From an uncultured Sphingomonas sp. (GTDB lineage: Bacteria; Pseudomonadota; Alphaproteobacteria; Sphingomonadales; Sphingomonadaceae): a DNA stretch of 49,242 nucleotides. Shown here one piece after another: positions 5,832-36,810 of the stretch; within the stretch, counting starts at the first letter, position 1, and every line of letters begins with the position of its first letter. The stretch lies in contig NZ_CALMAW010000009.1 in the NCBI RefSeq assembly GCF_937859915.1, positions 1 through 49,242 of the forward strand. The letters run 5' to 3'. The notes beneath the pieces were generated by a model. The model saw only the letters and a program-made list of their open reading frames with translations, did no database searches and was not told the origin of the DNA. A program made the position numbers and the translations under genes.

Positions 5832-7235
5832 GTGGCGCGCACGCTGTACGACAGACTGTGGGATGCGCACGTCGTCGTCTCCGAGGCCGACGGGCGCAGC
5901 TTGCTCTATATCGACCGGCATCTGCTTCACGAGGTGAGCACGCCGCAATCCTTCGCGGCGCTGCGCGAGGGCGGGCATGTCGTGCATCGCCCCGCGACCC
6001 AGCTCGCGGTCGCCGACCATGCCGTGCCGACGCACGACCGCGACCGGCCGATCGCCGATCCGCTGGCGCGCGCGCAGGTCGGGCTGCTCGAGCGCAACTG
6101 CGCCGATTTCGGGATCGACTATCTGCGGCTCGACGGCCCCGACCAGGGCATCGTCCACGTCATCGGCCCCGAACAGGGGTTCACGCTGCCGGGGATGACG
6201 CTGGTCTGCGGCGACAGCCATACCGCGACGCACGGCGCCTTCGGGGCGCTCGCCTTCGGGATCGGCGCCAGCGAATGCGGCACCGCGATGGCGACGCAGG
6301 CGCTGTGGCAGACCAAGGCCCGGCGGATGCGCGTCACCTTCGCCGGCGCGCTGGCGCCGGGCGTCACCCCCAAGGACATGGCGCTCGCGCTGATCGGCCG
6401 GATCGGCGCGGCGGGGGCCTCCGGCCATGCGATCGAATTCGCCGGCGAGGCGGTGCGCGCGCTGTCGATGGAGGGGCGGATGACGCTCTGCAACATGGCG
6501 ATCGAGGCGGGATCGCGCACCGGCCTCGTCGCCCCCGACGCGACCACCTTCGCCTATCTCGAGGGCCGGCCGCGGGCGCCGGCGAGCGCATCATGGGACG
6601 CGGCGCTGGCGGCGTGGCAGGATCTCGCCAGCGACCCGGACGCCGTGTTCGACCGCGAGATCGAGATCGACGCCGCGACGCTCGCCCCGCAGGCGACCTT
6701 CGGCACCAGCCCCGACCAGGTGATCGCGGTCGACGGCGCGCTGCCCGATCCCGCGACGCTGGCGGACGGCGCGGCGCGCGCCAAGCTCGAAAAGGCGCTG
6801 GCCTATATGGATCTGGCGCCGGGCCAGCGGCTCGCCGGGCTGGCGGTCGACCATGTCTTCATCGGCAGCTGCACCAACGGCCGGCTCGACGATCTGCGCG
6901 CCGCCGCGGCGACGATCCGCGGCCGCCGCGTCGCCGCCGGCGTGACCGCGCTGGTCGTCCCCGGCTCGGGCGCGGTCAAGCGCCAGGCCGAGGCGGAGGG
7001 GCTCGACCGGCTGTTCGTCGCGGCGGGCTTCCAGTGGCGCGAGGCGGGCTGTTCGCTGTGCGTCGCGATGAACGACGACCGGCTGCCGGCGGGCGCGCGC
7101 TGCGCTTCGACCTCGAACCGCAATTTCGAGGGCCGCCAGGGCGCCGGCGCGCGCACCCATTTGATGAGCCCGGCGATGGCCGCCGCCGCCGCGATCGCCG
7201 GGCATATCGTCGACATTCGCGAGGACGCCGCATGA
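5832..7235 (+). CDS. leuC: Isopropylmalate dehydratase large subunit-type hydratase (LeuC1)
   Basis: The 467-residue protein is the large subunit of an aconitase-superfamily [4Fe-4S] hydratase. The three cluster cysteines sit at 347 (GSCTNGR), 407 and 410 (GCSLC), the same positions as in canonical LeuC, and the following AMNDDR and [11 protein letters not shown] blocks are also canonical. The start is GTG with GGGAGAGGA upstream. It overlaps leuD1 by ATGA and continues into a lyase and an alcohol dehydrogenase. No leuA or leuB is nearby. A catabolic substrate (citraconate, dimethylmaleate or similar) is therefore as plausible as isopropylmalate, although the protein itself looks conventional. 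Confidence 0.9.
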
Positions 7236-7840
7236 TCCCGCTCCGCCAGGTCGAGGGCCGCGCGATCTCGCTGCCCGATGCCGACATCGACACCGACATC
7301 ATCTATCCCGCGCGCTTCCTGCTGATCACCGAGAAGCGCGGGCTCGGCCGCTACGCCTTCCACGATCGCCGCGGCGCACCCGGCTTCCCGTTCGATGCGC
7401 CCGACGCGAAAGAGGCGACGATCCTGATCGCGGGGGCCAATTTCGGCTGCGGATCGAGCCGCGAACAGGCGCCGTGGGCGCTCGCCGATCTCGGGCTGCG
7501 CGTGATCGTCGCGCCAAGCTTCGGCGAGATCTTCTTCTCGAACTGCTTCAAGAACGGGCTGCTCGCGATCACGCTGCCCGCCGAGCAGGTCGGGGCGCTG
7601 CACGGCGCGGCGACCGCGGGCGCGACGATCGCGGTCGATCTCGAGGCCGGCACGATCGCCGCGCCCGGGGTCACGACGATCCCGTTCGCGGTCGACGCCG
7701 ACAGCCGCGAGTCGCTGCTCAACGGCTGGGACGAGACCGCGCGCATCCGCGCGCGGCACAGCGCCGACATCACCCGTTTCGAGGCCGCCCAGCGGCGCGC
7801 CTCCCCCTGGCTTTGGACGAAGGACGACATCGATGCTTGA
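7232..7840 (+). CDS. leuD: Isopropylmalate dehydratase small subunit-type hydratase (LeuD1)
   Basis: This 202-residue swivel-domain partner of LeuC1 has the typical DIDTDIIYP opening, [17 protein letters not shown] (the substrate-binding GSSRE loop) and the following [19 protein letters not shown] block. It overlaps leuC1 by four bases (ATGA). Its own stop lies inside the start of the downstream lyase gene (8-base overlap), which indicates strict co-translation. The loop after TDIIYP ([11 protein letters not shown]) is longer and different from LeuD2, so the two hydratases in the window probably prefer different substrates. Confidence 0.9.
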
Positions 7841-8693
7841 CCCCCGGCTGCGCAGCAAACTCGCGAGCGGCACATTCTTCGTGGTGCCCGGCGTCCACGA
7901 CATGATCGCCGCCGTCGTCGCCGACCGCGTCGGCTTCGACATCGTCTATGGCACCGGCTATTGGCTGACCGCATCGGCCTACGGCCTGCCCGACGCCGGC
8001 ATCGCCACCTATTCACAGATGGTCGACCGCATGGCGACGGTGAAGCGGACCAGCAAAGCGGCGCTGATCGCGGATGCCGACACCGGCTTCGGCGGGCTGC
8101 TCAACGTCCATCACACGGTCAGGGGCTATGAGGCGGCGGGCGTCTCGGCGATCCAGATCGAGGACCAGGAATTTCCCAAGAAGTGCGGCCACACGCCGTT
8201 CAAGCGGCTGGTGCCGATCGCCGACATGGTCGAGAAGATCAAGGTCGCGGTCGATACGCGCGAGGAAATGCTGGTGATCGCGCGGACCGACGCGCGCCAG
8301 TCCGAAGGGCTCGACGGCACGCTGCGCCGGCTTGAGGCCTATGCCAAGGCGGGCGCCGACATCCTCTTCCCCGAGGCGCTGACCAGCGAGGCGGAGATGC
8401 GCACCGCCTGCGCGAGCTTCGAGCAGCCGGTGATGGCGAACATGGCCAATGGCGGCCTGACCCCCATGCTCAAGGGCGACGTGCTGGCGGACATCGGCTA
8501 TGCCTTCGCCATCTATCCGTCGCTGACCAGCCTGATCGCGGCCTCCGCGATGGAGACCGCGCTGGTCAAGCTGCGCGACGGGGGCGATGGTGAGCCGGCC
8601 GACATGCCGATGTTCGACTTCAAGACCTTCTGCGGCATGATCGGGTTCGAGGACGTATGGGCATTCGAGAAGAAATGGTCGCAGGACAAATGA
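7833..8693 (+). CDS. Isocitrate lyase/PEP mutase family C-C lyase
   Basis: This 286-residue TIM-barrel enzyme belongs to the ICL/PEP-mutase superfamily, whose members cleave 2-hydroxy di- and tricarboxylates to pyruvate or glyoxylate plus an acid. Visible motifs are DADTGFGG (81-88, Mg2+ site) and EDQEFPKKCGH (110-120) with the catalytic Cys118, as in methylisocitrate lyase, 2,3-dimethylmalate lyase and related enzymes. Directly following a LeuCD-type hydratase, it fits a hydrate-then-cleave pair such as dimethylmaleate to dimethylmalate to pyruvate plus propionate. That substrate is inferred only. Confidence 0.88.
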   Translation: MLDPRLRSKLASGTFFVVPGVHDMIAAVVADRVGFDIVYGTGYWLTASAYGLPDAGIATYSQMVDRMATVKRTSKAALIADADTGFGGLLNVHHTVRGYEAAGVSAIQIEDQEFPKKCGHTPFKRLVPIADMVEKIKVAVDTREEMLVIARTDARQSEGLDGTLRRLEAYAKAGADILFPEALTSEAEMRTACASFEQPVMANMANGGLTPMLKGDVLADIGYAFAIYPSLTSLIAASAMETALVKLRDGGDGEPADMPMFDFKTFCGMIGFEDVWAFEKKWSQDK

Positions 8694-9820
8694 CGACGAT
8701 CACCGCCGCGGTGCTCGCGCGCAGCGGCGACCAGCCGCGGCCCTATGCGGAATCGCGGCCGCTGACGCTTGCGACGCTGACGCTCGATCCGCCGCGGCCG
8801 GGCGAACTGCTGATCCGCATCGATGCGGCGGGGCTGTGCCATTCCGATCTCTCGGTGGTCAACGGCGACCGGCCGCGGCCGATGCCGATGGCGATCGGCC
8901 ATGAGGCGACCGGGATCGTCGCGGCGCTGGGCAGCGCCGACGACACCGGCTTCGCGGTCGGCGACCGCGTGGTCCTGGCGTTCCTGCCGTCCTGCGGCGA
9001 ATGCGTGCGCTGCCGCTCGGGCGAGGCCTATATGTGCGCGGTCGGCGCCGCGGCGAATGGCGAGGGCCGGCTGCTTCAGGGCGGGTGCCGGCTGCACGAT
9101 GCCGATGGCGGCGACGTCCGCCACCATCTCGGCGTCTCGGCCTTCGCGACACATGCGGTGGTCGACCGGCGCTCGGCGGTCAAAGTCGACCGCGACCTGC
9201 CGCCCGAGATCGCCGCGCTGTTCGGCTGCGCGGTGCTGACCGGGGTCGGCGCGGTGATGAACTCGGCCGCGGTGCGCCCCGGCGAGAGCGTGATCGTCTA
9301 CGGGCTCGGCGGCGTCGGCCTGTCCGCGCTGCTCGGCGCGCGGGCGAGCGGCGCCGCGCCGATCCTCGCGATCGATCCGTTCGCCGACAAGCGCGCGATC
9401 GCCCAGGACCTGGGCGCGGTCGCGGTCGGCCCCGAGGACGCCGCCGAGGCGATCGCGCGGCTGTTCTCCGAGGGCGGCGCGGACGTCGTCGTCGAGACGG
9501 TCGGCAAGGCGGCGGTGCTGCGCGACGCCTATCGCGCCGCGCGCCGCGGCGGCCGGATCGTCACCGTCGGCCTGCCCAATCCGGCCGAGCCGCTCGACAT
9601 TCCCGCGGTGTCGCTGGTCGCCGAGGGCAAGACGCTGATCGGTTCCTATATGGGCTCGTCGATCCCCGCGCGCGACATCCCGCGCTATATCGCGCTGTGG
9701 AAGGCGGGACGGCTGCCGGTCGAGCGGCTGCTGAGCTCGGTGCATCCGCTCGCCGACATCAACAGCCTGCTCGACGCGCTCGCCGACGGCCGCGCGATCC
9801 GACAGATCGTGACACCGTAG
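8690..9820 (+). CDS. Zinc-dependent alcohol dehydrogenase (MDR superfamily)
   Basis: This 376-residue medium-chain dehydrogenase has a catalytic zinc site at Cys50 and His71-Glu72 (GHEATG). The structural zinc cysteines are at 102, 105, 108 and 116. The nucleotide-binding GLGGVG is followed by an acidic residue in AIDPF, indicating NAD(H). The ATG at 8690 overlaps the lyase stop (ATGA) and was preferred to the upstream in-frame start at 8657. It is the last gene of the leuC1-leuD1-lyase operon and probably oxidises an alcohol group of the substrate or reduces an aldehyde product. Substrate unknown. Confidence 0.92.
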   Translation: MTTITAAVLARSGDQPRPYAESRPLTLATLTLDPPRPGELLIRIDAAGLCHSDLSVVNGDRPRPMPMAIGHEATGIVAALGSADDTGFAVGDRVVLAFLPSCGECVRCRSGEAYMCAVGAAANGEGRLLQGGCRLHDADGGDVRHHLGVSAFATHAVVDRRSAVKVDRDLPPEIAALFGCAVLTGVGAVMNSAAVRPGESVIVYGLGGVGLSALLGARASGAAPILAIDPFADKRAIAQDLGAVAVGPEDAAEAIARLFSEGGADVVVETVGKAAVLRDAYRAARRGGRIVTVGLPNPAEPLDIPAVSLVAEGKTLIGSYMGSSIPARDIPRYIALWKAGRLPVERLLSSVHPLADINSLLDALADGRAIRQIVTP

Positions 9821-9933
9821 CCGAGGCGCGCGGCTTGGCGGCGGTCATCCGACTGTCGGCCGAAGTCGGAAAGCGGATCGCAGGGCAAGCCGGCGCTTGC
9901 CATGCCGGGGTTTCCCCGTCGAAGGAGCCGATC

Positions 9934-10743
9934 ATGATCCCCCGCCGCGCCTATGCCGATGGTCCCTTCGGGCAAGTCCATTTCCAGCATCAGGGCGAGG
10001 GCCACCCGCTGGTGCTGCTCCATCAGGCGCCGATGACCTCGGCGCAGTTCGACTGGGTCTATGCGCCGCTCGCCGCGCGCGGGATCCAGGCGATCGGGAT
10101 CGACATGCCGGGCTTCGGCCAGTCGGACCCGACGCCGTTCGTGCCGGGCGTGCCCGATTATGCCGCGATCGTCCCGCCGGTGCTCGACGCGCTCGGCCTC
10201 GCCAGCGCCTCGGTGCTCGGCCACCATACCGGCGCGCTGGTCGCGACCGAGGTGGCGATCCAGTTCGCCGACCGGGTCGAGGCGCTGATCCTCAACGGGC
10301 CGCTGCCGCTGACCGAGGCGGAGCGTGCGGCCTATCTTGCCGGCGGCCACCAATGGGAGCTCGGCTTCACCGCGCAGCCGCACGCCGGCCACATGCGCGA
10401 GCTGTTCGACATTCGCGCGGGCTTTGCCGACGGCAGCGTGCCGCTGACCCGGATCAGCGACTATGTCGTCCAGGCGCTGGTCGGGCGCGGCACCTTCTGG
10501 CACGGCCATCACGCTGCCTTCCAATATCGCCAGGACGAGACGCTGCCGCGGATCACCCAGCCGACGCTGATCCTCACCAACAGTGGCGACTCGATCTTCG
10601 ACCATGCGGTGCGGGCGCATGCGATCCGCCCCGACTTCGCCTTCGTCGCGCTCGACGGCGGCGGCGTCGACATCGTCGACCAGCAGCCCGAGGCCTGGGC
10701 GGACGCGGTCGCGGCGTTCCTGCAGGCACAGGGCAGGCTGTAG
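9934..10743 (+). CDS. Alpha/beta-hydrolase fold protein with altered catalytic triad
   Basis: The 269-residue protein has the complete alpha/beta-hydrolase outline: an HQAP oxyanion segment, DMPGFGQSD, the nucleophile elbow and a C-terminal GGG region. The elbow reads G-H-H-T-G, placing His where the nucleophilic Ser should be. The usual catalytic-His segment reads GGGVDIVDQQP, with no His. GAAGGAG precedes the ATG. The context suggests a counterpart of N-formylmaleamate deformylase, but the missing Ser and His argue for a different mechanism or a non-hydrolytic role. It follows the ADH gene by 113 bases. Confidence 0.85.
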   Translation: MIPRRAYADGPFGQVHFQHQGEGHPLVLLHQAPMTSAQFDWVYAPLAARGIQAIGIDMPGFGQSDPTPFVPGVPDYAAIVPPVLDALGLASASVLGHHTGALVATEVAIQFADRVEALILNGPLPLTEAERAAYLAGGHQWELGFTAQPHAGHMRELFDIRAGFADGSVPLTRISDYVVQALVGRGTFWHGHHAAFQYRQDETLPRITQPTLILTNSGDSIFDHAVRAHAIRPDFAFVALDGGGVDIVDQQPEAWADAVAAFLQAQGRL

Positions 10744-10840: not shown

Positions 10841-11440
10841 TCAGGCGTCGAAATAGACCCACGGGTTCGCCGCGCGGTGCGCCGCCCGAAACGCGGCGAT
10901 CGCGTCGCGGCGGCGCAGCGTCAGGTCGATCGCGTCGAGCCCGCCGACCAGCATCGCCTTCGACTCCGCGTCGATCGCGAAGGTCGCGAAATTGCCCGCG
11001 GCGTCGGTGACGGTCTGCGCGGGCAGGTCGATCGCGAGCGGCTGGGGTGCCCCCGCGAACGCATGCGGGTCGAGTTCGATCGGCACGATGCCGTTGCGCA
11101 CGCAATTGCCGCGGAAGATCGGGTTGAAGCTCGGCGCGATGACGACGCGAAAACCATATTCGGCAAGCGCCCAGGCGGCATGTTCGCGCGACGAGCCGCA
11201 GCCGAAATTGGCGCCGCCGAGCAGGATCGCGGCCCTGGCATAGCCGGGATCGTTGAGCACGAAGCCGGGTTCGGGCACGCGGCCGCCGACCTCGGTGTAG
11301 CGCCAGCCCGCGAACAGCCCGTCCGCCAGGCCGGTCTTGCCGACCGTCTTCATCTCGCGCGAGGGGATGATCGCGTCGGTGTCGATATTGTCGCGGATCA
11401 GCGGCATCGCGATCGAGACGAGCGTGGTGAAGGGAGTCAT
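10841..11440 (-). CDS. leuD: Isopropylmalate dehydratase small subunit-type hydratase (LeuD2)
   Basis: This 199-residue partner of LeuC2 contains [30 protein letters not shown] and VVIAPSFNPIFRGNCVRNG, all diagnostic of the LeuD swivel domain. It overlaps leuC2 by ATGA and is the last gene of a two-gene leftward operon. The substrate-loop segment (KTVGKTGLADGLFAGWRY) differs from LeuD1. Enzymes of this type can hydrate citraconate and maleate as well as isopropylmaleate, which suits the neighbouring CoA-transferase and lyase genes. Confidence 0.9.
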   Translation of the reverse strand: MTPFTTLVSIAMPLIRDNIDTDAIIPSREMKTVGKTGLADGLFAGWRYTEVGGRVPEPGFVLNDPGYARAAILLGGANFGCGSSREHAAWALAEYGFRVVIAPSFNPIFRGNCVRNGIVPIELDPHAFAGAPQPLAIDLPAQTVTDAAGNFATFAIDAESKAMLVGGLDAIDLTLRRRDAIAAFRAAHRAANPWVYFDA

Positions 11441-12864
11441 GCCCCGGGCTCCGCGGCCGCTGTGTCCAGCGCGGCGGGCGCCACGATCCGGCCGGCGATC
11501 GCCGACGCCGCGACCGTCTCGGGCGAGGCGAGGTGCGAGCGCGTGCCGGGCCCCTGGCGGCTCTCGAAATTGCGGTTGGTCGAGCTGATCACGCGCTGCT
11601 GCGCGCCGAAGCTCTCGCCGCCCGCGAAGAAGCACATCGAACAGCCGGGTTCGCGCCACTCGAAGCCGGCGTCGAGGAAGATGCGGTCGAGCCCCTCGGC
11701 TTCGGCGGCCGCCTTGACCGCGCCCGATCCCGGTACGCAGATCGCGCGGACGCCGGGGGCGACATGGCGCCCGTCGAGGATCGCGGCGGCGCGGCGCAGG
11801 TCGGACAGGCGCGCGTTGGTGCACGAGCCGATGAAGGCCGCGTCGATCGCCGCGCCGGCCAGCGCCTCGCCCGCGGCCAGCCCCATATAGTCGAGCGCCC
11901 GCCCGTGAGCCTCGGCGGTGTCGCGATCCGAGACGTCGGCGAAGGCGGGCACCGCGCCGCCGAGCGGCACCGCCTGCTGCGGGCTGGTTCCCCAGGTCAC
12001 CATCGGCACGACATCGGCGGCGTCGACGCGGTGCTCGGTATCGAAGACCGCGTCGGCGTCCGAGGTGAGCGTCCGCCAGTCGGCGACCGCGCGGTCCCAT
12101 AGCGCGCCCTTGGGCGCATAGGGCCGGCCCTCGAGATAGGCGAAGACGGTGTCGTCGGGCGCGATGATCGCCGAGAAGGCGGCGCATTCGGTCGCCATGT
12201 TGCACAAGGTCAGCCGGCCCTCGACGTCGAGCGCGCGGACCGCGGTGCCGGCATATTCGAGGACGTGGCCCCTGGCGCCCGCCGAGCCGAAGCGCGCGAG
12301 CAGGTGCAGCGCGAGATCCTTGGCGGTGACGCCCGCGGCGAGCACGCCGTCGATCGTGATCCGCATCGTCTTGGGCCGGGTGACGCGCAGCGTCGTGGTG
12401 GCGAGCGCATGTTCCGCCTCGCTCGATCCGATTCCCCAGGCGAGCGCGCCGAGCGCGCCCTGCGAGCAGGTGTGGCTGTCGGGGCAGACGAGGGTGAGGC
12501 CGGGCAGGACGATCGCCTGCTCGGGCGAGATGACATGGACGATGCCCTGGCGTGGATCGCCGAGATCGAACAGCGTGATCCCCGCCGCCTTGGCGGCGTC
12601 GCGGGTCGCGGTGATGAAGGCGGTGCCGGTCGGCATGATCGTGCGGTCGGTGCGGCCGGGCAGCGTGTCGACGACATGATCCATCGTCGCGAACACCTGC
12701 GCGGGGGAGGCCACCGCGCGGCCCGCCGCCGCAAGACTCTCCAGCGCGACCCCGCCGGTGCGCTCGTGGAGCAGCACGCGGTCGATCAGCACCAGCCCGG
12801 TGCCCCCGCCGAGGTCCTCGACGACATGGCGATCCCAGATCTTGGCGAAAAGAGTCTGGCCCAT
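11437..12864 (-). CDS. leuC: Isopropylmalate dehydratase large subunit-type hydratase (LeuC2)
   Basis: This 475-residue aconitase-superfamily subunit has cluster cysteines at 348 (GSCTNAR), 408 and 411 (GCSMC). After GCSMC the usual AMN-D block is replaced by FFAGGES, and [11 protein letters not shown] becomes STNRNFESRQG, so it belongs to a divergent LeuC subfamily. The ATG at 12864 matches the LeuC1 N-terminus (MGQTLFAKIWDRHVV) and was chosen over the ATG at 12927. It is divergent from a GntR regulator 61 bases away, which probably controls it. Confidence 0.9.
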   Translation of the reverse strand: MGQTLFAKIWDRHVVEDLGGGTGLVLIDRVLLHERTGGVALESLAAAGRAVASPAQVFATMDHVVDTLPGRTDRTIMPTGTAFITATRDAAKAAGITLFDLGDPRQGIVHVISPEQAIVLPGLTLVCPDSHTCSQGALGALAWGIGSSEAEHALATTTLRVTRPKTMRITIDGVLAAGVTAKDLALHLLARFGSAGARGHVLEYAGTAVRALDVEGRLTLCNMATECAAFSAIIAPDDTVFAYLEGRPYAPKGALWDRAVADWRTLTSDADAVFDTEHRVDAADVVPMVTWGTSPQQAVPLGGAVPAFADVSDRDTAEAHGRALDYMGLAAGEALAGAAIDAAFIGSCTNARLSDLRRAAAILDGRHVAPGVRAICVPGSGAVKAAAEAEGLDRIFLDAGFEWREPGCSMCFFAGGESFGAQQRVISSTNRNFESRQGPGTRSHLASPETVAASAIAGRIVAPAALDTAAAEPGA

Positions 12865-12925: not shown

Positions 12926-13699
12926 ATGGCAACACACGCGATGCGGGATGCGATTCCGCTCTATCATCAGATCTATCTCGCCTTGCGCGACGAGATATTG
13001 TCGGGCGAGCGCGGTTTCGGCGCCGCGGTGCCGACCGAGCAGGAACTGGGCGCGATCCACGGCGTGTCGCGGATCACCGCGCGCCGCGCGCTCGACGAGC
13101 TGGCGAGCCACGGTCTGGTCGAGCGCAAGCGCCGCGTCGGCACGCGCGTCTGCTTCCGCGCGCCGACCGCGCCGATCGAGGGGCATATCGACCAGGCGGT
13201 CGACTCGCTGATCGCCTTCGGGCGCGACACGCAGGTCCGCGTGATCGAATATGGCGAGGTGCCGGCGACCGCGACCGTCGCCGACCGGCTCGGCATCGCG
13301 GTCGGCGCGCCGGTGATCCATGCGCTGCGGCTGCGCTCGGCCGACGAGGCGCCGCTCGGCGCGATCGAGAGCTTCGTGCCGGCGGCGATCGGGGCGGGGC
13401 TCAGCCGCGCCGCGCTGGCGACGCAACCGATGCTCGAGCTGATCCGCGCCGCCGGCCATGCGATCGGGGCGGGGTCGCAGATCATCTCCGCGGTGCCGGC
13501 CGACCCGGCGCTCGCCGCCTTGCTCGAGACCGAGGCGCGCGCGCCGATCATCCGCGTCGATCGCGTCGTGCGCGACACCGACGGACGTCCGCTGCTGTTC
13601 ACCAGCGCACGCTATCGCGGCGATCGCTATCGGCTCAGCCTCGATCTGCATGGCGGTGGTCAGCAGGCGATCGCGGCGGCGATGGCGTCGTCGCCATAA
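12926..13699 (+). CDS. GntR family (HutC-type) transcriptional regulator
   Basis: This 257-residue regulator has an N-terminal winged helix (about residues 9-77, PLYHQIYLALRDEILSG... and VSRITARRALDELASHGLV). A UTRA ligand-binding domain follows (about 90-245). HutC-type members usually sense a small metabolite of the pathway they control. It is divergent from leuC2-leuD2 and converges tail-to-tail with the CoA-transferase gene, overlapping it by 40 bases. The likely regulon is leuCD2, the CoA-transferase and the HMG-CoA-lyase-like operon. The start at 12926 is favoured; 12941 is an alternative. Confidence 0.9.
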   Translation: MATHAMRDAIPLYHQIYLALRDEILSGERGFGAAVPTEQELGAIHGVSRITARRALDELASHGLVERKRRVGTRVCFRAPTAPIEGHIDQAVDSLIAFGRDTQVRVIEYGEVPATATVADRLGIAVGAPVIHALRLRSADEAPLGAIESFVPAAIGAGLSRAALATQPMLELIRAAGHAIGAGSQIISAVPADPALAALLETEARAPIIRVDRVVRDTDGRPLLFTSARYRGDRYRLSLDLHGGGQQAIAAAMASSP

Positions 13700-24465: not shown

Positions 24466-24809
24466 CCGACCGCGATCTCGGCGATCACCGAGGAATAGCC
24501 TTCGCCGGTCTCGGCGGCGGCGGCCTCAGCGGCCTCCTTGCGCATCAGGTAGAACATCCGGTCGAGCATCGCCTGGCGGCGCGCTTCGCGCGTCTCGAGG
24601 GCGGTCTGGTCGAGCACCAGCGCGGCGATGCCGGCGCGCAGGTCGAGGCCGTTGGTCGCGGCGACGCGCTCGATCGAGTCGACATGGTCGGCGAGCACCG
24701 AGACCTCGCTCGCCAGCACCATGATCATCGACATCATCTGGTCGAGCGCGGGCGTCTCGTAGAAATGCGGGCGCTTACCCTTTGCGTTGCGGTTCATCGT
24801 CTCGGTCAT
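24462..24809 (-). CDS. Small helical protein coupled to FAD oxidase and methyltransferase
   Basis: The 115-residue protein is predicted to be almost entirely helical, with a Met-rich segment (LDQMMSMIMVLASEVSVLADHVDSIER) and an Ala/Glu-rich tail. There is no signal peptide, heme motif or metal site. ATGA overlaps join it to the methyltransferase upstream and the FAD oxidase downstream, giving a 1:1:1 translational unit. It may be a small subunit or adaptor of one of these enzymes; that is inference from coupling alone. I do not recognise the family. Confidence 0.8.
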   Translation of the reverse strand: MTETMNRNAKGKRPHFYETPALDQMMSMIMVLASEVSVLADHVDSIERVAATNGLDLRAGIAALVLDQTALETREARRQAMLDRMFYLMRKEAAEAAAAETGEGYSSVIAEIAVG

Positions 24810-27689: not shown

Positions 27690-27749
27690 TGCTGGGTCTC
27701 CCATAGGTCGGCCGCCTATAGCCCTTCGCGCCGCATCGGTCCGGGCATT

Positions 27750-27898: not shown

Positions 27899-28186
27899 AT
27901 GCCTGCTTTCATCGTCGCGACGGTTACGATTCACGACCCGGCCCGCTTTGCCGAATATGGCAAGCTCGTCGCGGGCCTCAGCGAGCGCTTCGGCGGTGAG
28001 TCCGTCATGAAGGGTGCGGTCTCGGACGCGCTCGAAGGCGATGTCACGATCGGCGAACGCGTCGTGGTCACGCGCTTTGCGGATGCCGATGCCGCCCGCG
28101 CCTATATCGCATCGCCCGACTATCAGGCCGCGCGGGCCACGCGTGGGGACGCGGCGACGGTGACGATGCGGTTGATCGCGCTGTGA
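27899..28186 (+). CDS. DUF1330 family small protein
   Basis: This 95-residue ferredoxin-like alpha/beta barrel protein of the DUF1330 family starts AFIVATVTIHDPARFAEYGK and keeps the typical central block (ERVVVTRFADADAARAYIASPDYQ). The function of the family is unsettled, but members often neighbour oxidoreductases of aromatic catabolism. AGGGGAGGA precedes the ATG. It overlaps the following flavin monooxygenase by GTGA, so it is probably an accessory protein of that enzyme or pathway step. Confidence 0.9.
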   Translation: MPAFIVATVTIHDPARFAEYGKLVAGLSERFGGESVMKGAVSDALEGDVTIGERVVVTRFADADAARAYIASPDYQAARATRGDAATVTMRLIAL

Positions 28187-29448: not shown

Positions 29449-30231
29449 TTAGCTGGCCTTGTCGCTGAGCAGGCCGCTGATCAGCAGCGCGGTGCGTTGC
29501 AGCGCGCCGAGATGTTCGGACACCGCCTGCACCTGCTTCATCGCCGCGGCGAAGTAGATCATCGTCAGCGCGGCGTGGAACTGGCCGTTGCGGAAGATCG
29601 GCACCGCGATCGTCGAAGTCTTGCCCGGGGTCAGATTGTGCTGGCCCCAATCCTGCGCGGCATAGCCGTCGGTGCGAATCCTGTTGAGCGTGGTGTCGAA
29701 GTCGAACAGCGGCCGCGGCTTGCCGGCGCCCTCGTCGGTCACCGCCAGCCAGCGCATCACGTTCTCAAGCTCGTCGGGGTGCATCTGCGCGAGGCAGACG
29801 CGTCCCGATGCGGTGTCGAGCAAGGGCAGCGTATAGCCCGGATAATAGCGCTCGAAGGTCAGTGCGGTCTCGGCATGGGTCGAATCGCGCACCACCATGT
29901 GCGTGCCGACGCGCACCGTGATCGACACCGGCCAGCCGATCGCCTTGGTGAGCTCGCGGATCGGCTGCTGCGCGACGTCGACCAACAGGCTGTCGGACCG
30001 GTAGCCATGCGCGAGCGACTGGACGAGCGCGGTCGGGCGATAATGTTTGCGCGACGGCTCCTGCTCGATCAGCCCCTCGACGATCAGCGTCTGCACGATC
30101 CGGCACGCGGTCGGGTAGGGCACCTCGCCCTGGCGGGAGATCGCCATCATCGACAGCGAGCCATGTTTGTTCAACGCCTGCAGCACCGAGATGCACCGGC
30201 TGATCGAGCGGATAGGGACGCCTTTTTCCAC
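29449..30231 (-). CDS. IclR family transcriptional regulator
   Basis: This 260-residue regulator has an N-terminal winged helix (about residues 8-68, SRCISVLQALNKHGSLSMMAISRQ) and a C-terminal IclR effector domain (about 80-255, with RVGTHMVVRDSTHAETAL). No ATG fits. A GTG at 30231 with AGGAG six bases upstream gives the normal family length and was chosen over a longer frame. It faces tail-to-tail with the monooxygenase gene. Identical 16-bp candidate operators lie upstream of itself and between ALDH 1 and DUF1330. Confidence 0.9.
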   Translation of the reverse strand: MEKGVPIRSISRCISVLQALNKHGSLSMMAISRQGEVPYPTACRIVQTLIVEGLIEQEPSRKHYRPTALVQSLAHGYRSDSLLVDVAQQPIRELTKAIGWPVSITVRVGTHMVVRDSTHAETALTFERYYPGYTLPLLDTASGRVCLAQMHPDELENVMRWLAVTDEGAGKPRPLFDFDTTLNRIRTDGYAAQDWGQHNLTPGKTSTIAVPIFRNGQFHAALTMIYFAAAMKQVQAVSEHLGALQRTALLISGLLSDKAS

Positions 30232-30276
30232 GAAGAACTCCTGCGACTCGGTGAACTTCGTGAAGCTTATGTTGCA

Positions 30277-30292
30277 GCCGGATTTATCCGCA
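30277..30292. promoter_or_regulatory. Candidate IclR operator, site 2 (autoregulation)
   Basis: This 16-mer is identical to site 1 at 27750-27765 and lies about 46 bases upstream of the iclR start codon, a position suited to autoregulation. Confidence 0.6.
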
Positions 30293-30305
30293 AGACGGTT
30301 AGAAA

Positions 30306-30324
30306 CTATCCGCCTGTCGGATAG
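30306..30324. promoter_or_regulatory. Inverted repeat CTATCCG-N5-CGGATAG upstream of iclR
   Basis: A perfect 7-bp dyad with a 5-base spacer shares the CGGAT/ATCCG half-sites with the 16-bp candidate operators nearby. It may be a second binding site. A related CCGCCTGGCGGATAG sequence lies at 26155-26169, upstream of the methyltransferase operon. Confidence 0.4.
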
Positions 30325-30409
30325 GCGCCGCGGAACGTTTCGCGTCGCTCGCAGCGCGGCATCGGTGGTGTTCCGTGAGAGAGGGGGCTGTCGGCCAGGC
30401 AAACCCCGT

Positions 30410-30556: not shown

Positions 30557-31186
30557 TCAGGTCCGACCGGACAGCAGCCCGATCGCGATCTTCTCGGAGA
30601 CGACCTCGGCATATTTGGCCTGCAGATCGAACAGATTGGCGCCGTGGGGCCGGGGGTCGCGATCACCACAGGCGTCGGCCACCACGAACGGCACGAAGCC
30701 GCTCTGCAGCGCGTCGAGCGCGGTCGCGCGGACGCAGCCCGAGGTCGAGAAGCCGGTGACGAAGACGGTGTCGACCCGCATCGCATTCAGCGTCGAGGCG
30801 AGCGAGCTGCCGAAGAAGGCCGAGGCATATTGTTTGGTGACGACGACGTCGCCCGCGACCGGCGTCAGCTCGGGATGAAAGTCGCCGAGCGGCGAGCCCG
30901 GCAGGAACGCCTTCAGCGCCGGCACCTTGCGGTAGAACAGCCCGCCGTCGGCGCCGCCCGGCCCGTAGGCGACGCGCGTGAAGATCACCGGCACGCCCGA
31001 TGCGCGCGCGGCCGCGACCAAGCGGATGTTCGAGGCGAGCGCGCTCTCGACGCCGGCGTAGAGCGGCGAGCCGGGATCGAGATAGGCCATGCAGACATCG
31101 ACGATCAGCAGCGCCGGTCTTTCCCCGATGCCGAGGCGGCCACCGAAGCCGGCTTTGGCGTAATCGTCGTCGAGCGCGTCATCCAT
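30557..31186 (-). CDS. Isochorismatase-fold amidohydrolase 2
   Basis: This 209-residue cysteine hydrolase has the triad Asp30 (LLIVDVCMAY), Lys118 (VVTKQYASAFF) and Cys151 (FSTSGCVRA). The KQYASAFF segment is typical of N-carbamoylsarcosine amidase and maleamate amidohydrolase-like enzymes. It probably releases ammonia from an amide or carbamoyl intermediate. It follows hyuB by only six bases and is the last gene of the hyuA-hyuB operon, so it likely acts on the product of the hydantoinase-type step. Overall it differs from amidohydrolase 1, so the two are not recent duplicates. Confidence 0.9.
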   Translation of the reverse strand: MDDALDDDYAKAGFGGRLGIGERPALLIVDVCMAYLDPGSPLYAGVESALASNIRLVAAARASGVPVIFTRVAYGPGGADGGLFYRKVPALKAFLPGSPLGDFHPELTPVAGDVVVTKQYASAFFGSSLASTLNAMRVDTVFVTGFSTSGCVRATALDALQSGFVPFVVADACGDRDPRPHGANLFDLQAKYAEVVSEKIAIGLLSGRT

Positions 31187-31192: not shown

Positions 31193-33079
31193 TTACTCCG
31201 CTGCAACCGCAAGCGCGGGAACATGCCATTTGGGCTGGATCGGGCCGGGCAGGCCGGTCTCGGCCAGGCAATTGGCGCGCTTCGCCTCGATGTCGGCACC
31301 ATGGTTGAACAGCGGCAGCGTCTCGGGACGCGCCGCGCGGAGCTGCGTGCGCAGCGCCTCGGTCGCCGCGGCATCGACGGTGCCGTCCGCACCGATCACC
31401 ACACCGTACGCCTTGGCGCCCGCGACGGTGACCAGACCCTGGCCGATCTCCATCGCGACCAGCGCGGGATCGCGCGCCAGCGGGTCGCCCCAGCCGCCGC
31501 CGCCCCAGGTGATGAAGTGGAGGATGTCGTCGGCCTCGACCGCGAGATCCTCGACCTTGTTGCCGACCACGGTCTGCGTGCCGTCGGGCTTTTCGAGGAT
31601 CTTCTTCGCGCGGGCGCCAGGCTCGCCGCCATTGACGCCCCAGGGCGAGACGAACCAGCGGTCGTCGTGGATCGCGATCATGCCCGGTTCGAGGAAGCGA
31701 TAGCTCATCAGGATGCCGTTGCCGCCGCGGTGCAGCCCGGCGCCGCCCGAATCCGCCACCGTCTCATAGCGTTCGATCACCAGCGGGAAGTAGCGCTCGA
31801 GAAACTCGTTGGGCACGTTGGTGAAGTTGGGCCACAGCGAATGGCCGTCGGGGCCGTCGCCGAGCGGGCGGCCGGGGATGCCGCCGAAGCCGATCTGGAA
31901 CAGCTGGAACCACTCGCCGCTCTTGTCGGTGCCCGAATAGAAGAGATGCGGCGAGGAGGAGAAGCCCGCGGCGTTGAGGAATTCGGGGGTCTTCTGGCCG
32001 AGCAGGCCGCCGAGGATGTCGAAGATCCGGCCGAGCGCGTGGGTGCGGCCCGACAGCGCCGCCGGGAATTTCGGCTTGAGCAGCGAGCCTTCGGGGATGC
32101 GGACGTCGATCAGATCGTAGAAGCCGTCGTTGAACAGGATCTGCGGGTCGAACACCATGATCATGTAGATGCCGAAGAACATGCGGAACATGTTTTCGTT
32201 GAGGAAGAAGTTGATCGACGCCTGGCTTTGCGGATCGGTGCCGTCGAAATCGAGCACGACGCGGCCCTTCTCCTTCCACATCGTGCAGCGGATCTTGTAC
32301 GGGCCGTAGCCCATGCCGTCGTCGCAGATATAGTCCTCGAAGCTGACCGGCTCGTCGCCGACCGCGGTCTCGATCAGGCTCGCCATCGCGCGGTGGTTGC
32401 GCGCGAGCAGCTCCTCGCAGGCCGAGACGAATACGTCGTCGCCGAACCGCTCGGCCATCTCGACGACGCGGCGCGCGGCGACCCGGCACGAGGCGACCAG
32501 CGCGTTCAGATCCGCCTTGCACCATTCGGGGGTGCGGACCTGGTGCATGATCAGCGCGACGAGGTCGGCGTTGTAGAGGCCCTGTTTCCAGATCTTGACC
32601 GGCGGGATGCGCACCCCCTCCTGGAAGATCGAGGTGGCGTCGATCGGCATCGAGCCCGCGACCTTGCCGCCGATGTCCGACATGTGGCCGAACATCGAGG
32701 TGTAGGCGATCAGCCGGCCGTCCTTGAACACCGGGAGCAGCACCAGCCAGTCGTTGGAGTGGCTGATCGCGCCGTCGACCGAATAGGGATCGGACAGCAT
32801 GATCATGTCGCCCTCCTCGACGGTGCCGGCATAGCCTTCGAGGAACGGGCCGATATAGGAGCCGAATTGGCCGACGATCATCCGGCCCTTGTGATCGGCG
32901 ATCAGCGGGAAGCTGTCGCCCTGCTCGGGGATGCCGGGAGACATCGCGGTGCGGACCAGCGTCGCGTCCATCTCGTTGCGCGCGTTGCGCAGCGCATTCT
33001 CGATGATGTCGAGCGTGACCGGGTCGATCTCGACGGGGCTGAAGGGGGTGGCGTTGGACTGGACGATGCGGGCGCTCAT
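31193..33079 (-). CDS. hyuB: Hydantoinase B/oxoprolinase family protein
   Basis: This 628-residue HyuB-type subunit begins with DPVTLDIIENALRNARNEMD, and the GDSFPLIADHKGRMIVGQFG and MIMLSDPYSVDGAISHSND blocks are family-typical. HyuA and HyuB together form ATP-dependent amidases that open hydantoins, 5-oxoproline and related lactams; acetone carboxylase subunits are distant relatives. The ATG at 33079 gives the normal N-terminus, and the longer upstream frame was dropped. It lies 29 bases after hyuA and six bases before amidohydrolase 2. Confidence 0.93.
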   Translation of the reverse strand: MSARIVQSNATPFSPVEIDPVTLDIIENALRNARNEMDATLVRTAMSPGIPEQGDSFPLIADHKGRMIVGQFGSYIGPFLEGYAGTVEEGDMIMLSDPYSVDGAISHSNDWLVLLPVFKDGRLIAYTSMFGHMSDIGGKVAGSMPIDATSIFQEGVRIPPVKIWKQGLYNADLVALIMHQVRTPEWCKADLNALVASCRVAARRVVEMAERFGDDVFVSACEELLARNHRAMASLIETAVGDEPVSFEDYICDDGMGYGPYKIRCTMWKEKGRVVLDFDGTDPQSQASINFFLNENMFRMFFGIYMIMVFDPQILFNDGFYDLIDVRIPEGSLLKPKFPAALSGRTHALGRIFDILGGLLGQKTPEFLNAAGFSSSPHLFYSGTDKSGEWFQLFQIGFGGIPGRPLGDGPDGHSLWPNFTNVPNEFLERYFPLVIERYETVADSGGAGLHRGGNGILMSYRFLEPGMIAIHDDRWFVSPWGVNGGEPGARAKKILEKPDGTQTVVGNKVEDLAVEADDILHFITWGGGGWGDPLARDPALVAMEIGQGLVTVAGAKAYGVVIGADGTVDAAATEALRTQLRAARPETLPLFNHGADIEAKRANCLAETGLPGPIQPKWHVPALAVAAE

Positions 33080-33108
33080 GGCGAATACCTTGTCTGGTCT
33101 GCTGTCGG

Positions 33109-35160
33109 TCAGGCGGCGGGCGTGATGAGGATGTTGCCGATCGCGTCGACGGTGCCGATGTGCGCGGTCTCGATCAGCGTGGTCGAGTCCATCTCGACGA
33201 CGATCGCCGGACCCTGGATGACGTCGCCACCCTTGAGCAGCGCGCGGTCGTAGATCGCGCCCGCCTGCGATGCGCCGTCCATCCACAGCTCGTGGTCGCG
33301 CAGCTTGGCGGCGTGCGGATTGCCGTCGCCCTTGGGCAGTTCGAGCGCGGGCAATTCGAGCGCGCGGCCCATCGCGACCGCGCGCAGGTTCACGAACTCA
33401 TGCTCGCTGTCCATGTTGAAGGTGAACAGCCGGCGATGCTCGTCGTCGAAGCGCTTGGCGAGGCCGTCGAGCCCGGTCGCCTCGAGCTCGGCGAACCGCA
33501 CGGTCATCGGCACCTCGAAGGCCTGGCCTGCATAGCGGACGTCGACCTCGAAGGCGGTGATCACGTCGGCGTCGGCGACACCCTCGGCGGCGAGCGTGGT
33601 GCGGACCTGCACCTCCATCTCCTGGAGCAGTCCGAGAATCTCGGCGCCGCTGGTCGCCGAGCGCAGCTTGGAGTGCGAGCGCGCGGCCTCGGTGCGCATC
33701 CGCGTGGTCGCGTCGCCCAGCGCGCACAACACGCCGGGGCTGACCGGCGATACCGCGGGATAGCTGCCCATCAGCCGCGCGACCGCATTGACGTGGAGCG
33801 GACCCGCGCCGCCGAAGCCCATCAGCGCGAACTCGCGCGGATCATAGCCCTGCTGCACCGAGATCATCCGCAGCGCGCCGAACATATTCTCGTTGACGAT
33901 ATCGATGATGCCGCGCGCGGCCTTGTAGAGATCGATGCCGAGCGCGTCGGCGATCGTCTGCACCGCCGCCTTGGCGCCGGCGCGATCGAGCTTGAACGCG
34001 CCGCCGAGCAGGTTCTCGGGGAGATAGCCCAGCACGACATTGGCGTCGGTGACGGTCGGCAGCGTGCCGCCCTTGCCGTAGGCGGCGGGGCCGGGGACGG
34101 CGCCCGCCGACTGCGGCCCGACCCGCAGCGCCTTGGTGAGCTGCGGCACATAGGCGATCGAGCCGCCGCCCGCGCCCACCGTCTTCACGTCGAGCGAGGA
34201 GGCGCGCACCGAGAGATGGCCGACCTCGGTGGTGCGGACGCGGCGCGGCTCGCCATTCTCGATCAGCGCGACGTCGGTCGAGGTGCCCCCGACGTCGAGC
34301 GTCAGGATATTCTTGAGGCCGGCATGTTTCGCCACCCACAGCGCGCCGGTGACGCCGCCCGCGGGCCCCGACATCAGCAGTGCGACCGGCTGCTCCTCGG
34401 ATTTTTCCGACGACATCAGCCCGCCGTCCGAGCGCAGCAGCGCGAGCCGGCCCTTCATCTCGATCTGCTCGAGCTTGCCGCGCAGGTTGCGGACGTAGCG
34501 GCCGACGACGGGGCGCACCGCGGCATTGGCGACCGTGGTCAGCGTGCGCTCATATTCCTGCATCTCGGGCAGAACCTCGTGGCTGAGCGAGATCGGCACG
34601 TCGGGCAGGATCTCGGCCGCCAGCTTGGCCACCGCCAGCTCGTGCGCGCCGTTGAGATAGGCGTTGATCAAAGAGACGGTCAGCGCCTCGACGCCCTTGG
34701 CTTTCAGCGCCTCGAGCTGGGCGCGGATGTCGGCCTCGTCGATCGGGCGCAGTTCCTTGCCGCGGGCGTCCATCCGGCCCTTGATCTCGACCGTGTCCTC
34801 GAGCCGGGCGAGCGGCTCGGGCTTGGGCCAGACGATCCAGCCGGCGAGACCGCCGGGGACGAAGCTGCGCGCGATCTGCATGATCTGGCGATAGCCCTCG
34901 GTCGTCACCAGCCCGACGCGCGCGCCCTTGCCCTCCAGCATCGCATTGGTCGCGACCGTGGTGCCGTGGAGGAAGTAGACGATCTCCTTGGCCGTGATCC
35001 CCGCCTTGGCGCACACCGCCTCGACGCCGGTGAGGATGCCCTCCGAACTGTCGTGCGGCGTCGACGGCGTCTTGTGGCGCCAGAAGTCGCCGCTGGCCTC
35101 GTTGAACAGCAGCAGATCGGTGAACGTGCCGCCGACATCGACACCCAGGCGGTAGGACAT
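33109..35160 (-). CDS. hyuA: Hydantoinase A/oxoprolinase family ATPase subunit
   Basis: This 683-residue HyuA-type subunit has an N-terminal hydantoinase domain with the phosphate-binding RLGVDVGGTFTDLLLF. LHGTTVATNAMLEGKGARVGL follows, then a second actin-like nucleotide site (ILTLDVGGTSTDVALI), AGGGSIAY and GPAAYGKGG. It uses ATP to activate a cyclic amide for hydrolysis together with HyuB. It leads the operon hyuA-hyuB-amidohydrolase 2, and GAGGG precedes the ATG. Substrate class (hydantoin, lactam or imide) cannot be decided from the sequence. Confidence 0.93.
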   Translation of the reverse strand: MSYRLGVDVGGTFTDLLLFNEASGDFWRHKTPSTPHDSSEGILTGVEAVCAKAGITAKEIVYFLHGTTVATNAMLEGKGARVGLVTTEGYRQIMQIARSFVPGGLAGWIVWPKPEPLARLEDTVEIKGRMDARGKELRPIDEADIRAQLEALKAKGVEALTVSLINAYLNGAHELAVAKLAAEILPDVPISLSHEVLPEMQEYERTLTTVANAAVRPVVGRYVRNLRGKLEQIEMKGRLALLRSDGGLMSSEKSEEQPVALLMSGPAGGVTGALWVAKHAGLKNILTLDVGGTSTDVALIENGEPRRVRTTEVGHLSVRASSLDVKTVGAGGGSIAYVPQLTKALRVGPQSAGAVPGPAAYGKGGTLPTVTDANVVLGYLPENLLGGAFKLDRAGAKAAVQTIADALGIDLYKAARGIIDIVNENMFGALRMISVQQGYDPREFALMGFGGAGPLHVNAVARLMGSYPAVSPVSPGVLCALGDATTRMRTEAARSHSKLRSATSGAEILGLLQEMEVQVRTTLAAEGVADADVITAFEVDVRYAGQAFEVPMTVRFAELEATGLDGLAKRFDDEHRRLFTFNMDSEHEFVNLRAVAMGRALELPALELPKGDGNPHAAKLRDHELWMDGASQAGAIYDRALLKGGDVIQGPAIVVEMDSTTLIETAHIGTVDAIGNILITPAA

Positions 35161-35298
35161 GCTGGAGACCCTCGGAAAAAGACTGTGCCGCGCCTCGCGG
35201 GCGCAGCGTTCGATCCGTGATGGCCAGCGCGATCGGGCGGTGCAACGCCGGCGGCACGGCTGTTCGTCCAGCGGTTAAGCGGCGCCGATCGCGCCGCC

Positions 35299-36810
35299 TT
35301 AGAGCCGCGCCGTGATCGCCTTGGTCTCGAGATAGAGGTCGAGCCCCTCCTTGCCGAACTCGCGGCCCCAACCCGATTGCTTGTAGCCGCCGAACGGGAT
35401 GTTGGCGGCGACCGCGCCGTGGCAGTTGATCGAGACATGGCCAGATCGGATGCGCGCCGCCATGCGGTGCGCGGTCGACAGGTCGCGCGTCCAGACGCTG
35501 CCCGACAGGCCGTAGACGCTGTCGTTGGCGCGCTTGGCGACCGCGTCGAGGTCCTCGTCGCCGAAGCGCTCGATCGCCATCACCGGCCCGAAAATCTCCT
35601 CGCGCACGATCGCCATGTCGGGGGTGCAGTCGGCGAAGATGGTCGGCTCGATGAAATTGCCCGGACCCTCGGGCGTCGTCCCGCCGACCAGCACGCGCGC
35701 GCCCGCGGCGATCCCGCTCTCGACATAGGCGGCGACGCGGTCACGATGTCCCTGCGAGATCAGCGGGCCGATCTGCGTCGCCGGATCGAGGCCATGGCCG
35801 ATGCGATAGGTCGCGACGTGCGCGGCGAGCCGGGCGACGAAATCGTCGTGGATCGCCTCGTGGACGAAGATCCGCGTGCCGGCCATGCAGTTCTGGCCCT
35901 GCAGGAAGAAGGTCGCCATCGCGACGCCGGGGACGGCGATATCGAGATCGGCGTCGGCGAAGACGACAACGGGGGATTTGCCGCCGAGCTCGAGCGAGAC
36001 CTTCTTCATCGTCTCGACCGCGCTGCGCACGATCAGCTTGCCGACCTCGGTCGATCCGGTGAAGGCGATCTTGTCGACGTCCGGATGCGCGACCAGCGCG
36101 GCGCCCGCGACCTCGCCGATCCCGCAGATGATGTTGACGACGCCGTCGGGAAAGCCCGCCTCGCTGATCAGGCGGCCCAGGATGATCGCCGAGAGCGGAG
36201 TCTCCTCGGACGATTTGAGCACGACCGTGCACCCCGCCGCCAGCGCGGGGGCGAGCTTGAGGATCGCCATCGACAGCGGCACGTTCCACGGCACGATCTG
36301 CCCGATCACCCCGACCGCCTCACGCACCGTATAGGTCAGTGCCTCGCCGAACATGGTGAGATGCGCGGGCGGCGCGGTGGTCGTCCCCTCGATCCGTGTC
36401 GCCCAGCCGGCATAATAATCGAGCATCTCGACCGCGCCGCCGACGATCATCTGCGCGAGCCCGATCGGCATGCCATTGTCGAGCACCTCGACCTCGGCGA
36501 GCAGGTCCGCATCGCGCTCGACCAGCGCGGCAAGCTTGCGGATCAGCCGCGCGCGGTCGGCGCCGCGGCTCCTGCCCCAGCCGCCCTCGAACGCGGCGCG
36601 TGCGGCGATCACCGCGGCATCGACGTCCTGCGCATCGGCGATCGCGACGTCGGCGAGATGCGCGCCGGTCGCCGGATCGAAGGTCGCGAGCGTCTCGCCC
36701 GCGACGCCTGGGCGCGACACGCCGGCGATCAGCAACGGGAAGGGACCTTGGAGAAAGGCGCGGGTCGTCGCCGAAAGCGGAAGATCGGTCGCGGGCGGGA
36801 CGAACGGCAT
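35299..36810 (-). CDS. Aldehyde dehydrogenase 2 (NAD(P)+-dependent)
   Basis: This 503-residue ALDH-superfamily enzyme has PWNVP (174-178), GSTEVGK, Glu274 in LELGGKSP and the catalytic Cys308 in FFLQGQNCMAGTR. It has the same length as ALDH 1 but differs across much of the sequence, so it is a paralogue with probably different substrate choice. The ATG at 36810 follows AGGAG; the longer upstream frame is not supported. It lies 138 bases before hyuA on the same strand and may be co-transcribed. Confidence 0.93.
   Translation of the reverse strand: MPFVPPATDLPLSATTRAFLQGPFPLLIAGVSRPGVAGETLATFDPATGAHLADVAIADAQDVDAAVIAARAAFEGGWGRSRGADRARLIRKLAALVERDADLLAEVEVLDNGMPIGLAQMIVGGAVEMLDYYAGWATRIEGTTTAPPAHLTMFGEALTYTVREAVGVIGQIVPWNVPLSMAILKLAPALAAGCTVVLKSSEETPLSAIILGRLISEAGFPDGVVNIICGIGEVAGAALVAHPDVDKIAFTGSTEVGKLIVRSAVETMKKVSLELGGKSPVVVFADADLDIAVPGVAMATFFLQGQNCMAGTRIFVHEAIHDDFVARLAAHVATYRIGHGLDPATQIGPLISQGHRDRVAAYVESGIAAGARVLVGGTTPEGPGNFIEPTIFADCTPDMAIVREEIFGPVMAIERFGDEDLDAVAKRANDSVYGLSGSVWTRDLSTAHRMAARIRSGHVSINCHGAVAANIPFGGYKQSGWGREFGKEGLDLYLETKAITARL

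Follow-up and report, generated by a model that had tools for sequence, protein, structure and literature searches.

A sphingomonad gene region that suggests two parallel lower arms for the catabolism of cyclic imides

What does a sphingomonad break down with a set of PuuE-type hydrolases, amidase-like proteins, extra LeuCD-type hydratases and carbon–carbon lyases gathered in one place? The question is raised by positions 5832–36810 of contig C9 of an uncultured Sphingomonas sp.; the whole contig of 49,242 bases was analysed and is called the window here, and its source assembly comprises 3.68 Mb in 137 contigs and is 80% complete. A first-pass annotation had read the region as one pathway from an N-heterocycle or a substituted maleimide to pyruvate. 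The gene families on which it built are present in tightly packed, probable operons, as judged by Pfam and NCBIfam scans of genes called with a simple codon-score script and, for LeuD, by reading frame. What we observe directly are these families, the overlaps between genes, neighbourhoods that recur, co-occurrence across genomes and lyase routes that can replace one another; from sequence comparison we propose, with moderate confidence, that they belong to a sphingomonad catabolic system whose two lower arms run in parallel and take in cyclic imides, of which substituted maleimides are the likeliest.

The core consists of iso1 (15870..16553, +), an isochorismatase-fold amidase candidate by Pfam whose solved relatives are 4l07 and N-carbamoylsarcosine amidohydrolase, followed by PuuE-A (16553..17476, +), which gives profile matches to PuuE structures 3cl6 and 1z7a and served as query for the distribution surveys, and PuuE-B (17476..18399, +), an NCBIfam PuuE-type match. 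Together with leuC2 (11437..12864, −; Pfam and NCBIfam), leuD2 (10841..11440, −; named from frame and product, 57–62% identical to annotated leuD on plasmids), a CaiB-type class III CoA-transferase (13660..14829, −; Pfam 363.7 bits, reaching no equivalog cut-off) and an HMG-CoA-lyase-type lyase (HMGL; 14905..15855, +), it forms what we term module A. A second hydratase lies at the start of the region, where the large subunit leuC1 (5832..7235, +; NCBIfam LeuC 702 bits, SCTN and GCSLC motifs) overlaps leuD1 (7232..7840, +; frame and product, 65% identical to annotated leuD on two plasmids) by 4 bp and is followed by a lyase of the isocitrate lyase (ICL)/PrpB type (7833..8693, +; Pfam PEP_mutase/ICL). 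Both LeuC copies carry the SCTN and GCS.C motifs with three Fe–S cysteines, as a LeuCD-type hydratase should, and both small subunits were assigned from the reading frame beside each LeuC. The top score to the LeuC model goes to a third copy, on contig C17, to which the window copies are 60% (leuC1) and 52% identical.

The strongest support for a common function of these genes comes from other genomes. Among 125 loci chosen by similarity to PuuE-A, 18 shorter than 15 kb were dropped and the 107 kept were dereplicated to 102, in which relatives of iso1 (99), PuuE-B (101), LeuC2 (72), HMGL (78) and CaiB (74) recur. Twenty 20-kb control regions, taken at arbitrary round coordinates from relatives' genomes, held PuuE, isochorismatase, LeuC, HMGL, CaiB or ICL relatives in 0 of 20 cases, and yielded just one alcohol dehydrogenase, one aldehyde dehydrogenase and two relatives of flanking genes; the clustering therefore exceeds chance. 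The iso–PuuE–PuuE core adjoins an extra LeuC in 76 of the 102 loci, and a complete lyase route, either HMGL with CaiB or the ICL type, accompanies it in 74 of these 76 as against 3 of the 26 loci without LeuC (Fisher p = 2e-17), so that the co-occurrence elsewhere, set beforehand as a test of the first-pass annotation, is borne out. At least an HMGL or an ICL relative is found in 76/76 and 7/26 of the loci, respectively. By route, the LeuC loci divide into 60 with HMGL and CaiB only, 9 with both routes, 5 with ICL only and 2 in which neither is complete. The ICL-only loci represent at least three families, namely L057 (the window's family), L153 (Burkholderia plantarii), L190 and L191 (one family) and L192 (another), the last of which also carries an HMGL relative and lies on a sequence stretch that ends near by. 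The Burkholderia plantarii hydratase comes from a different LeuC/HacA subfamily, so that there the hydratase–lyase pair is retained although neither of its members is the usual one. This coupling is our best evidence for hydration and then C–C cleavage after the PuuE and isochorismatase steps.

The lyases themselves are in keeping with such a role. HMGL passes the HMG-CoA-lyase subfamily model NF004283 (277.9 bits, cut-off 246), and the ICL-type protein has a KKCGH motif that is identical in the aligned 4iqd and corresponds to KRCGH in methylisocitrate lyases; this loop is catalytic in C–C lyases of the ICL superfamily, and PrpB and 2,3-dimethylmalate lyase are among the solved relatives of the protein. 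An identity of the Burkholderia plantarii CaiB as succinate–glutarate CoA-transferase, which would have indicated glutarate as product, was rejected (542 bits, cut-off 750). A flavocytochrome-c/TcuA-like FAD dehydrogenase also occurs in L153 (9372–10727), L151 (18866–20254) and L181 (11831–13237), adjoining LeuCD in the first two, and might perhaps oxidise substituted succinates to maleates.

PuuE-A itself is patchily distributed. At E ≤ 1e-100 it is found in 47 of 296 Sphingomonadales genomes, roughly one in six, and at E ≤ 1e-40 in 55 of the 296, with some of those matches to other PuuE types; across the phylum, 10 of 398 genomes match at E ≤ 1e-70. The sole other sampled genome of the same genus (G290) has no match, at the limits used, to PuuE-A, PuuE-C, the oxidase or the methyltransferase discussed below, which shows how irregular the occurrence of the set is. 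The best 80 of at least 557 PuuE-A relatives on named genome contigs come mostly, by title, from sphingomonads, along with two Steroidobacter-type genomes. All 80 of these loci have iso1, 79 have PuuE-B, 62 HMGL, 61 CaiB and as many LeuC2, 60 LeuD2 and 47 a methyltransferase relative. Cultured carriers include Parasphingopyxis lamellibrachiae DSM 26725 for module A and Novosphingobium capsulatum HAMBI 103 for a PuuE-C set. PuuE-A matches occur in 58 plasmid records; neighbourhoods that were read place the module on plasmids of Acidiphilium, Sphingomonas JE1 and Sphingobium TomTYG65, and a more distant Burkholderia plantarii plasmid also has it but lacks HMGL. Comamonas (L156) and Salipiger (L157) carry the core with neither LeuC nor a lyase route. 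Searches of open-licence PMC text brought up no description of the gene set, and the main text of a tomatine paper covering strain TomTYG65 contains none of four core enzyme names looked for.

A second set of genes, module B, centres on PuuE-C (19696..20625, −; NCBIfam PuuE-type match, profile matches to PuuE structures). It comprises, besides the ICL-type lyase, the flavin monooxygenase FMO1 (18536..19699, −; NCBIfam and structure relatives), akin to 6-hydroxynicotinate 3-monooxygenase and salicylate hydroxylases; Amd (20649..21407, −), of the AMDase/EutA superfamily by family scans and alignments; the PnpA/HspB-type monooxygenase FMO2 (28183..29403, +; Pfam and structure relatives), like FMO1 an FAD_binding_3 protein in Pfam/NCBIfam; a second amidase candidate, iso2 (30557..31186, −); HyuB (31193..33079, −; Pfam 482.6 bits) and HyuA (33109..35160, −; Pfam); and the aldehyde dehydrogenase ALDH2 (35299..36810, −; Pfam), the starts of HyuB and ALDH2 being picked from the translation. 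PuuE-C is present in 16 of 292 genomes, the window's own counted, and in 16 PuuE-C loci, some of them truncated, we find Amd and FMO2 in 11 each, an IclR regulator and the methyltransferase in 9 each, FMO1, ICL and the oxidase in 8 each, ALDH2 in 7, iso2 and HyuB in 5 each and LeuC1 in 3. For this and the following genome-wide comparisons, PuuE-A presence means E ≤ 1e-100, a limit chosen after inspecting the 296-genome table; the later draws held 292 genomes, those with the same handle being treated as identical, the window's own genome was left out of the association counts, and the Fisher p-values overstate independence because the genomes are related. PuuE-A occurs in 13 of the 15 other PuuE-C genomes (all but G214 and G239) as against 33 of the remaining 276 (Fisher p = 6e-10), even though the two genes lie about 445–520 kb apart in G254, G203 and G233 and on separate contigs in G105. 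Modules A and B are thus separable in location and linked in occurrence. The order proposed by the first-pass annotation, ring opening, deamidation, hydration and C–C cleavage, fits the families and their linkage, whereas its single linear pathway gives way to at least two separable modules. In L058, L059, L060, L151 and L167, HyuA and/or HyuB adjoin a second, divergent HMGL–CaiB pair, a recurring lactam-type module apart from PuuE-A.

Two families overlooked by that annotation turned out to be the strongest genome-wide partners of the core among those tested. One is a VAO/GlcD-type FAD oxidase (22889..24465, −), whose gene in the window falls into two pieces at a single frameshift near 23430; these match residues 1–346 and 343–524 of an intact relative, and intact relatives exist in other genomes. 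The other is a class I S-adenosylmethionine (SAM)-dependent methyltransferase with an unassigned N-terminal helical region (24806..26026, −; family scans and structure model), which is joined to the oxidase gene by u115 (24462..24809, −), a 115-aa protein that overlaps each neighbour by 4 bp, matches no Pfam family and has relatives that adjoin methyltransferases. In surveys that scored only the top few candidates per genome, and for which the oxidase query was the intact relative from L067, the oxidase family was found in 52 of 292 genomes and the methyltransferase in 42; a single genome has as many as six methyltransferase matches, which equals the number scored. Of 51 oxidase genomes 42 carry PuuE-A, and 42 of 46 PuuE-A genomes carry the oxidase (Fisher p = 4e-37); the nine without PuuE-A comprise G179, G239 and seven members of a single genus (g69), mostly incomplete. 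In the order sampled, nearly all genomes with the methyltransferase family have the PuuE-A set (39/41, Fisher p = 1e-38), and 7 of 46 PuuE-A genomes lack the family. The predicted structure of the methyltransferase is an ordinary class I fold, with best matches at a TM score of about 0.4 by query length, and gives no clue to a substrate.

Four PuuE-A genomes have no oxidase. Two of them (G122 and G144; loci L031 and L032) carry an Old-Yellow-Enzyme-type (OYE) protein instead, so that different upstream modules may supply a common lower route; no substitute was found in the other two, G047 and G091. The variant upstream set, an OYE-type flavoprotein of 661 aa with an SDR and a glyoxalase-like protein, was seen in ten loci, eight of which are L031, L032, L078, L079, L081, L084, L090 and L092, L031 being the same in place as L084 and L032 as L090. 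Assignment of the OYE-type protein as bilirubin reductase was rejected (254.7 bits, cut-off 750).

We tentatively propose the following scheme, in which every reaction, its order and its substrate are suggested by gene families and linkage. In one arm, PuuE-A and PuuE-B would open a cyclic imide to a half-amide, from which iso1 would release ammonia to leave a substituted maleate; LeuCD2 may then hydrate this to a substituted malate, to which CaiB would add CoA before the HMGL-type lyase splits it into a 2-oxo acid and an acyl-CoA. In the other arm, PuuE-C and iso2 could perform the same imide opening and deamidation, LeuCD1 the hydration, and the ICL/PrpB-type lyase a cleavage without CoA to a 2-oxo acid and an acid. 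HyuA and HyuB are candidates for the ATP-dependent hydrolysis of a lactam or hydantoin, and FMO1, FMO2, the VAO-type oxidase, the aldehyde dehydrogenases and the methyltransferase with u115 might make the imide from a larger nitrogen-containing substrate. The co-occurrence would imply a lower path from cyclic imides to central metabolites with two alternative lyase routes, and it names a short, testable list of genes, with carriers in other proteobacterial families as well. A narrower version, that the substrates are substituted maleimides and lactams freed from tetrapyrroles in chlorophyll or bilin breakdown, appears quite unlikely. It would assign the two imide arms to two kinds of pyrrole ring, HyuAB to the lactam ends and VAO- or OYE-type flavoenzymes to the bridge carbons, together with a catabolic SAM-methyltransferase family, and if true it would help to explain the way in which bacteria clear what is left of chlorophyll and heme. 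Heme oxygenase (PF01126) showed no association with PuuE-A (2 of 19 genomes with it and 44 of 272 without it carry PuuE-A; Fisher p = 0.75), so the tetrapyrrole-derived maleimides of the first-pass annotation gain no positive support.

Several observations weigh against the imide scheme. Although a PuuE-A profile of 14 rows matches PuuE structure 3cl6 at E = 3e-37, confirming the superfamily, and a PuuE-C profile, built from seven PuuE-C rows together with PuuE-A and PuuE-B of the window, matches 1z7a at E = 4e-49 and 3cl6 at E = 1e-47, the three PuuE types score far under the PuuE equivalog TIGR03212 (117.3, 89.7 and 147.3 bits against 424.6). The metal-site motif HxxxH of HpPgdA, whose structure comes nearest to known imidases, appears absent from all three in the PuuE-C profile alignment and the window sequences, which makes imidase activity less direct. 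Both amidase candidates retain the SGC motif and score higher to N-carbamoylsarcosine amidohydrolase than to 3uao, the maleamate amidase NicF: 94 against 70 bits for iso1, and 158.6 (26st) against 136.8 bits (3ot4/3uao) for iso2, a margin by which homology does not tell the two activities apart. The ICL-type protein misses the PrpB equivalog TIGR02317 (243.6 bits, cut-off 354.4), the core goes without LeuC in 26 of the 102 loci, G239 has PuuE-C, oxidase and methyltransferase but no PuuE-A, and the methyltransferase and u115 find no role in the scheme. Finally, maleate isomerase works with two catalytic cysteines, and in Amd the second is replaced by an invariant Gly (GTNL) in 23 of 23 aligned rows, which include the window protein and some genomes twice; the first is kept in just 9 of the 23, the window protein among them. 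Amd is therefore unlikely to act as a classical two-cysteine isomerase, which leaves the label of maleate-isomerase type doubtful, and the isomerase step was rejected. On the other side, PMC9304392, on nicotinate catabolism in fungi, ties the PuuE/NodB superfamily to HxnM, a fungal imidase, and to a cyclic imide hydrolase from Pseudomonas putida.

The higher scores of the amidases to the carbamoyl enzyme and the fact that PuuE opens a hydantoin ring make a hydantoin or carbamoyl route the main rival, possible though unlikely. The PuuE types and HyuAB would open hydantoin-like rings, the isochorismatases would be N-carbamoyl amidases, and LeuCD and the lyases would take on the deaminated skeleton. 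PuuE is indeed among the best solved relatives of PuuE-A and PuuE-C, and HyuA, HyuB and iso2 are adjacent, as enzymes of the creatinine pathway would be. Such a route sits less well with the linkage of LeuC to PuuE, which fits a maleate more easily than an amino acid, or with the scanned representatives of recurring gene clusters, which include no transaminase and, of amine oxidases, just a single family from 8 loci. HyuB, for its part, remains far from the caprolactamase beta subunit (NF050157; 211.7 bits, cut-off 1000). The top partners of the core, oxidase and methyltransferase, and the alpha/beta hydrolases are not nitrogen-specific, which speaks for chemistry without nitrogen, with an aromatic or terpenoid compound whose anhydrides, lactones or esters the PuuE- and isochorismatase-fold proteins would attack; we regard this as improbable, since HyuAB and two isochorismatases with SGC motifs indicate C–N bonds, as does a nitrilase-family protein found in 19 of the 80 best loci.

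It seems doubtful, too, that unrelated operons share the contig by accident. Module A comes with a GntR and module B with an IclR regulator, and 33 of 46 PuuE-A genomes lack PuuE-C, yet nearly every PuuE-C genome has PuuE-A even where the two lie far apart. A variant of the nicotinate/2,5-dihydroxypyridine (nic or VPP) pathway might be read into the similarity of FMO1 to 6-hydroxynicotinate 3-monooxygenase (168 bits), of FMO2 to HspB (171 bits) and of iso2 to 3uao, and is highly improbable. The 2,5-dihydroxypyridine dioxygenase NicX belongs to the M29 family, and PF02073 has no match in the 80%-complete assembly and matches in 4 of 14 controls; LeuCD, HMGL and ICL would be superfluous in that pathway, and Amd lacks the second isomerase cysteine. 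The first-pass annotation had likewise seen no such dioxygenase and had set the region apart from nic and VPP, and on both points we agree. The imide scheme with its two arms is the reading that we prefer.

The region has further genes. A Zn alcohol dehydrogenase (8690..9820, +; Pfam) follows the ICL gene, and an alpha/beta-hydrolase-like protein (9934..10743, +; frame and product, with tblastn relatives in other loci) lies next to it. A GntR-type regulator (12926..13699, +; frame and product, 57% identical to an annotated GntR on an Acidiphilium plasmid) and an IclR regulator (29449..30402, −; Pfam) suggest at least two regulatory units. Further genes encode u228 (21648..22334, +), predicted as a beta-barrel (pLDDT 91) with DUF1849 6ntr as nearest fold (TMq 0.61), from which no activity could be read and a relative of which matches DUF3108 weakly, below cut-off; a glyoxalase-superfamily protein (22349..22852, +; Pfam); the aldehyde dehydrogenase ALDH1 (26178..27704, −; Pfam); and a DUF1330 protein (27899..28186, +; Pfam). 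Besides the methyltransferase with u115 and the split oxidase, the beta-barrel protein, glyoxalase-like protein, alpha/beta-hydrolase-like protein, DUF1330 and both regulators are additions to the first-pass annotation. Overlaps of 1–8 bases within leuC1–leuD1–ICL–alcohol dehydrogenase, leuC2–leuD2, iso1–PuuE-A–PuuE-B, FMO1–PuuE-C, oxidase–u115–methyltransferase and DUF1330–FMO2 indicate that these groups are probably operons. The flanks (105–5693 and 37734–41071) are ordinary, with pirin, CorA, a YaaH-type transporter, aldose epimerase, an outer membrane efflux protein and an HlyD-type protein, and a tRNA-Pro lies at 44377–44453.

The region shares features with several known systems. The fungal hxn pathway shares the use of a NodB/PuuE-superfamily imidase, HxnM, followed by an amidase, HxnN, but it takes a six-membered imide ring to hydroxyglutarate, and neither LeuCD nor a lyase is mentioned in the excerpted text of the source (PMC9304392). 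With the nic pathway the window has in common NicC- and HspB-related monooxygenases, a 3uao-related amidase and a maleate isomerase superfamily protein; it differs in its hydratases and C–C lyases, in having no NicX-type match and in an Amd without the second Cys. The aerobic nic lower pathway runs from N-formylmaleamate and maleamate to fumarate. HyuA and HyuB adjoin a relative of carbamoylsarcosine amidase, as in the creatinine/N-methylhydantoin route, but here they stand beside an aldehyde dehydrogenase gene and are linked to monooxygenases and PuuE-C. A further parallel is the 2,3-dimethylmaleate branch of nicotinate fermentation, in which dimethylmaleate hydratase is followed by 2,3-dimethylmalate lyase. 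Both have a two-subunit aconitase-type hydratase and then an ICL-superfamily lyase, the Eubacterium enzymes being likened by enzyme type, whereas the window would enter through imidase- and amidase-type enzymes, with flavin monooxygenases, and its relatives often carry CaiB and HMGL in place of that lyase.

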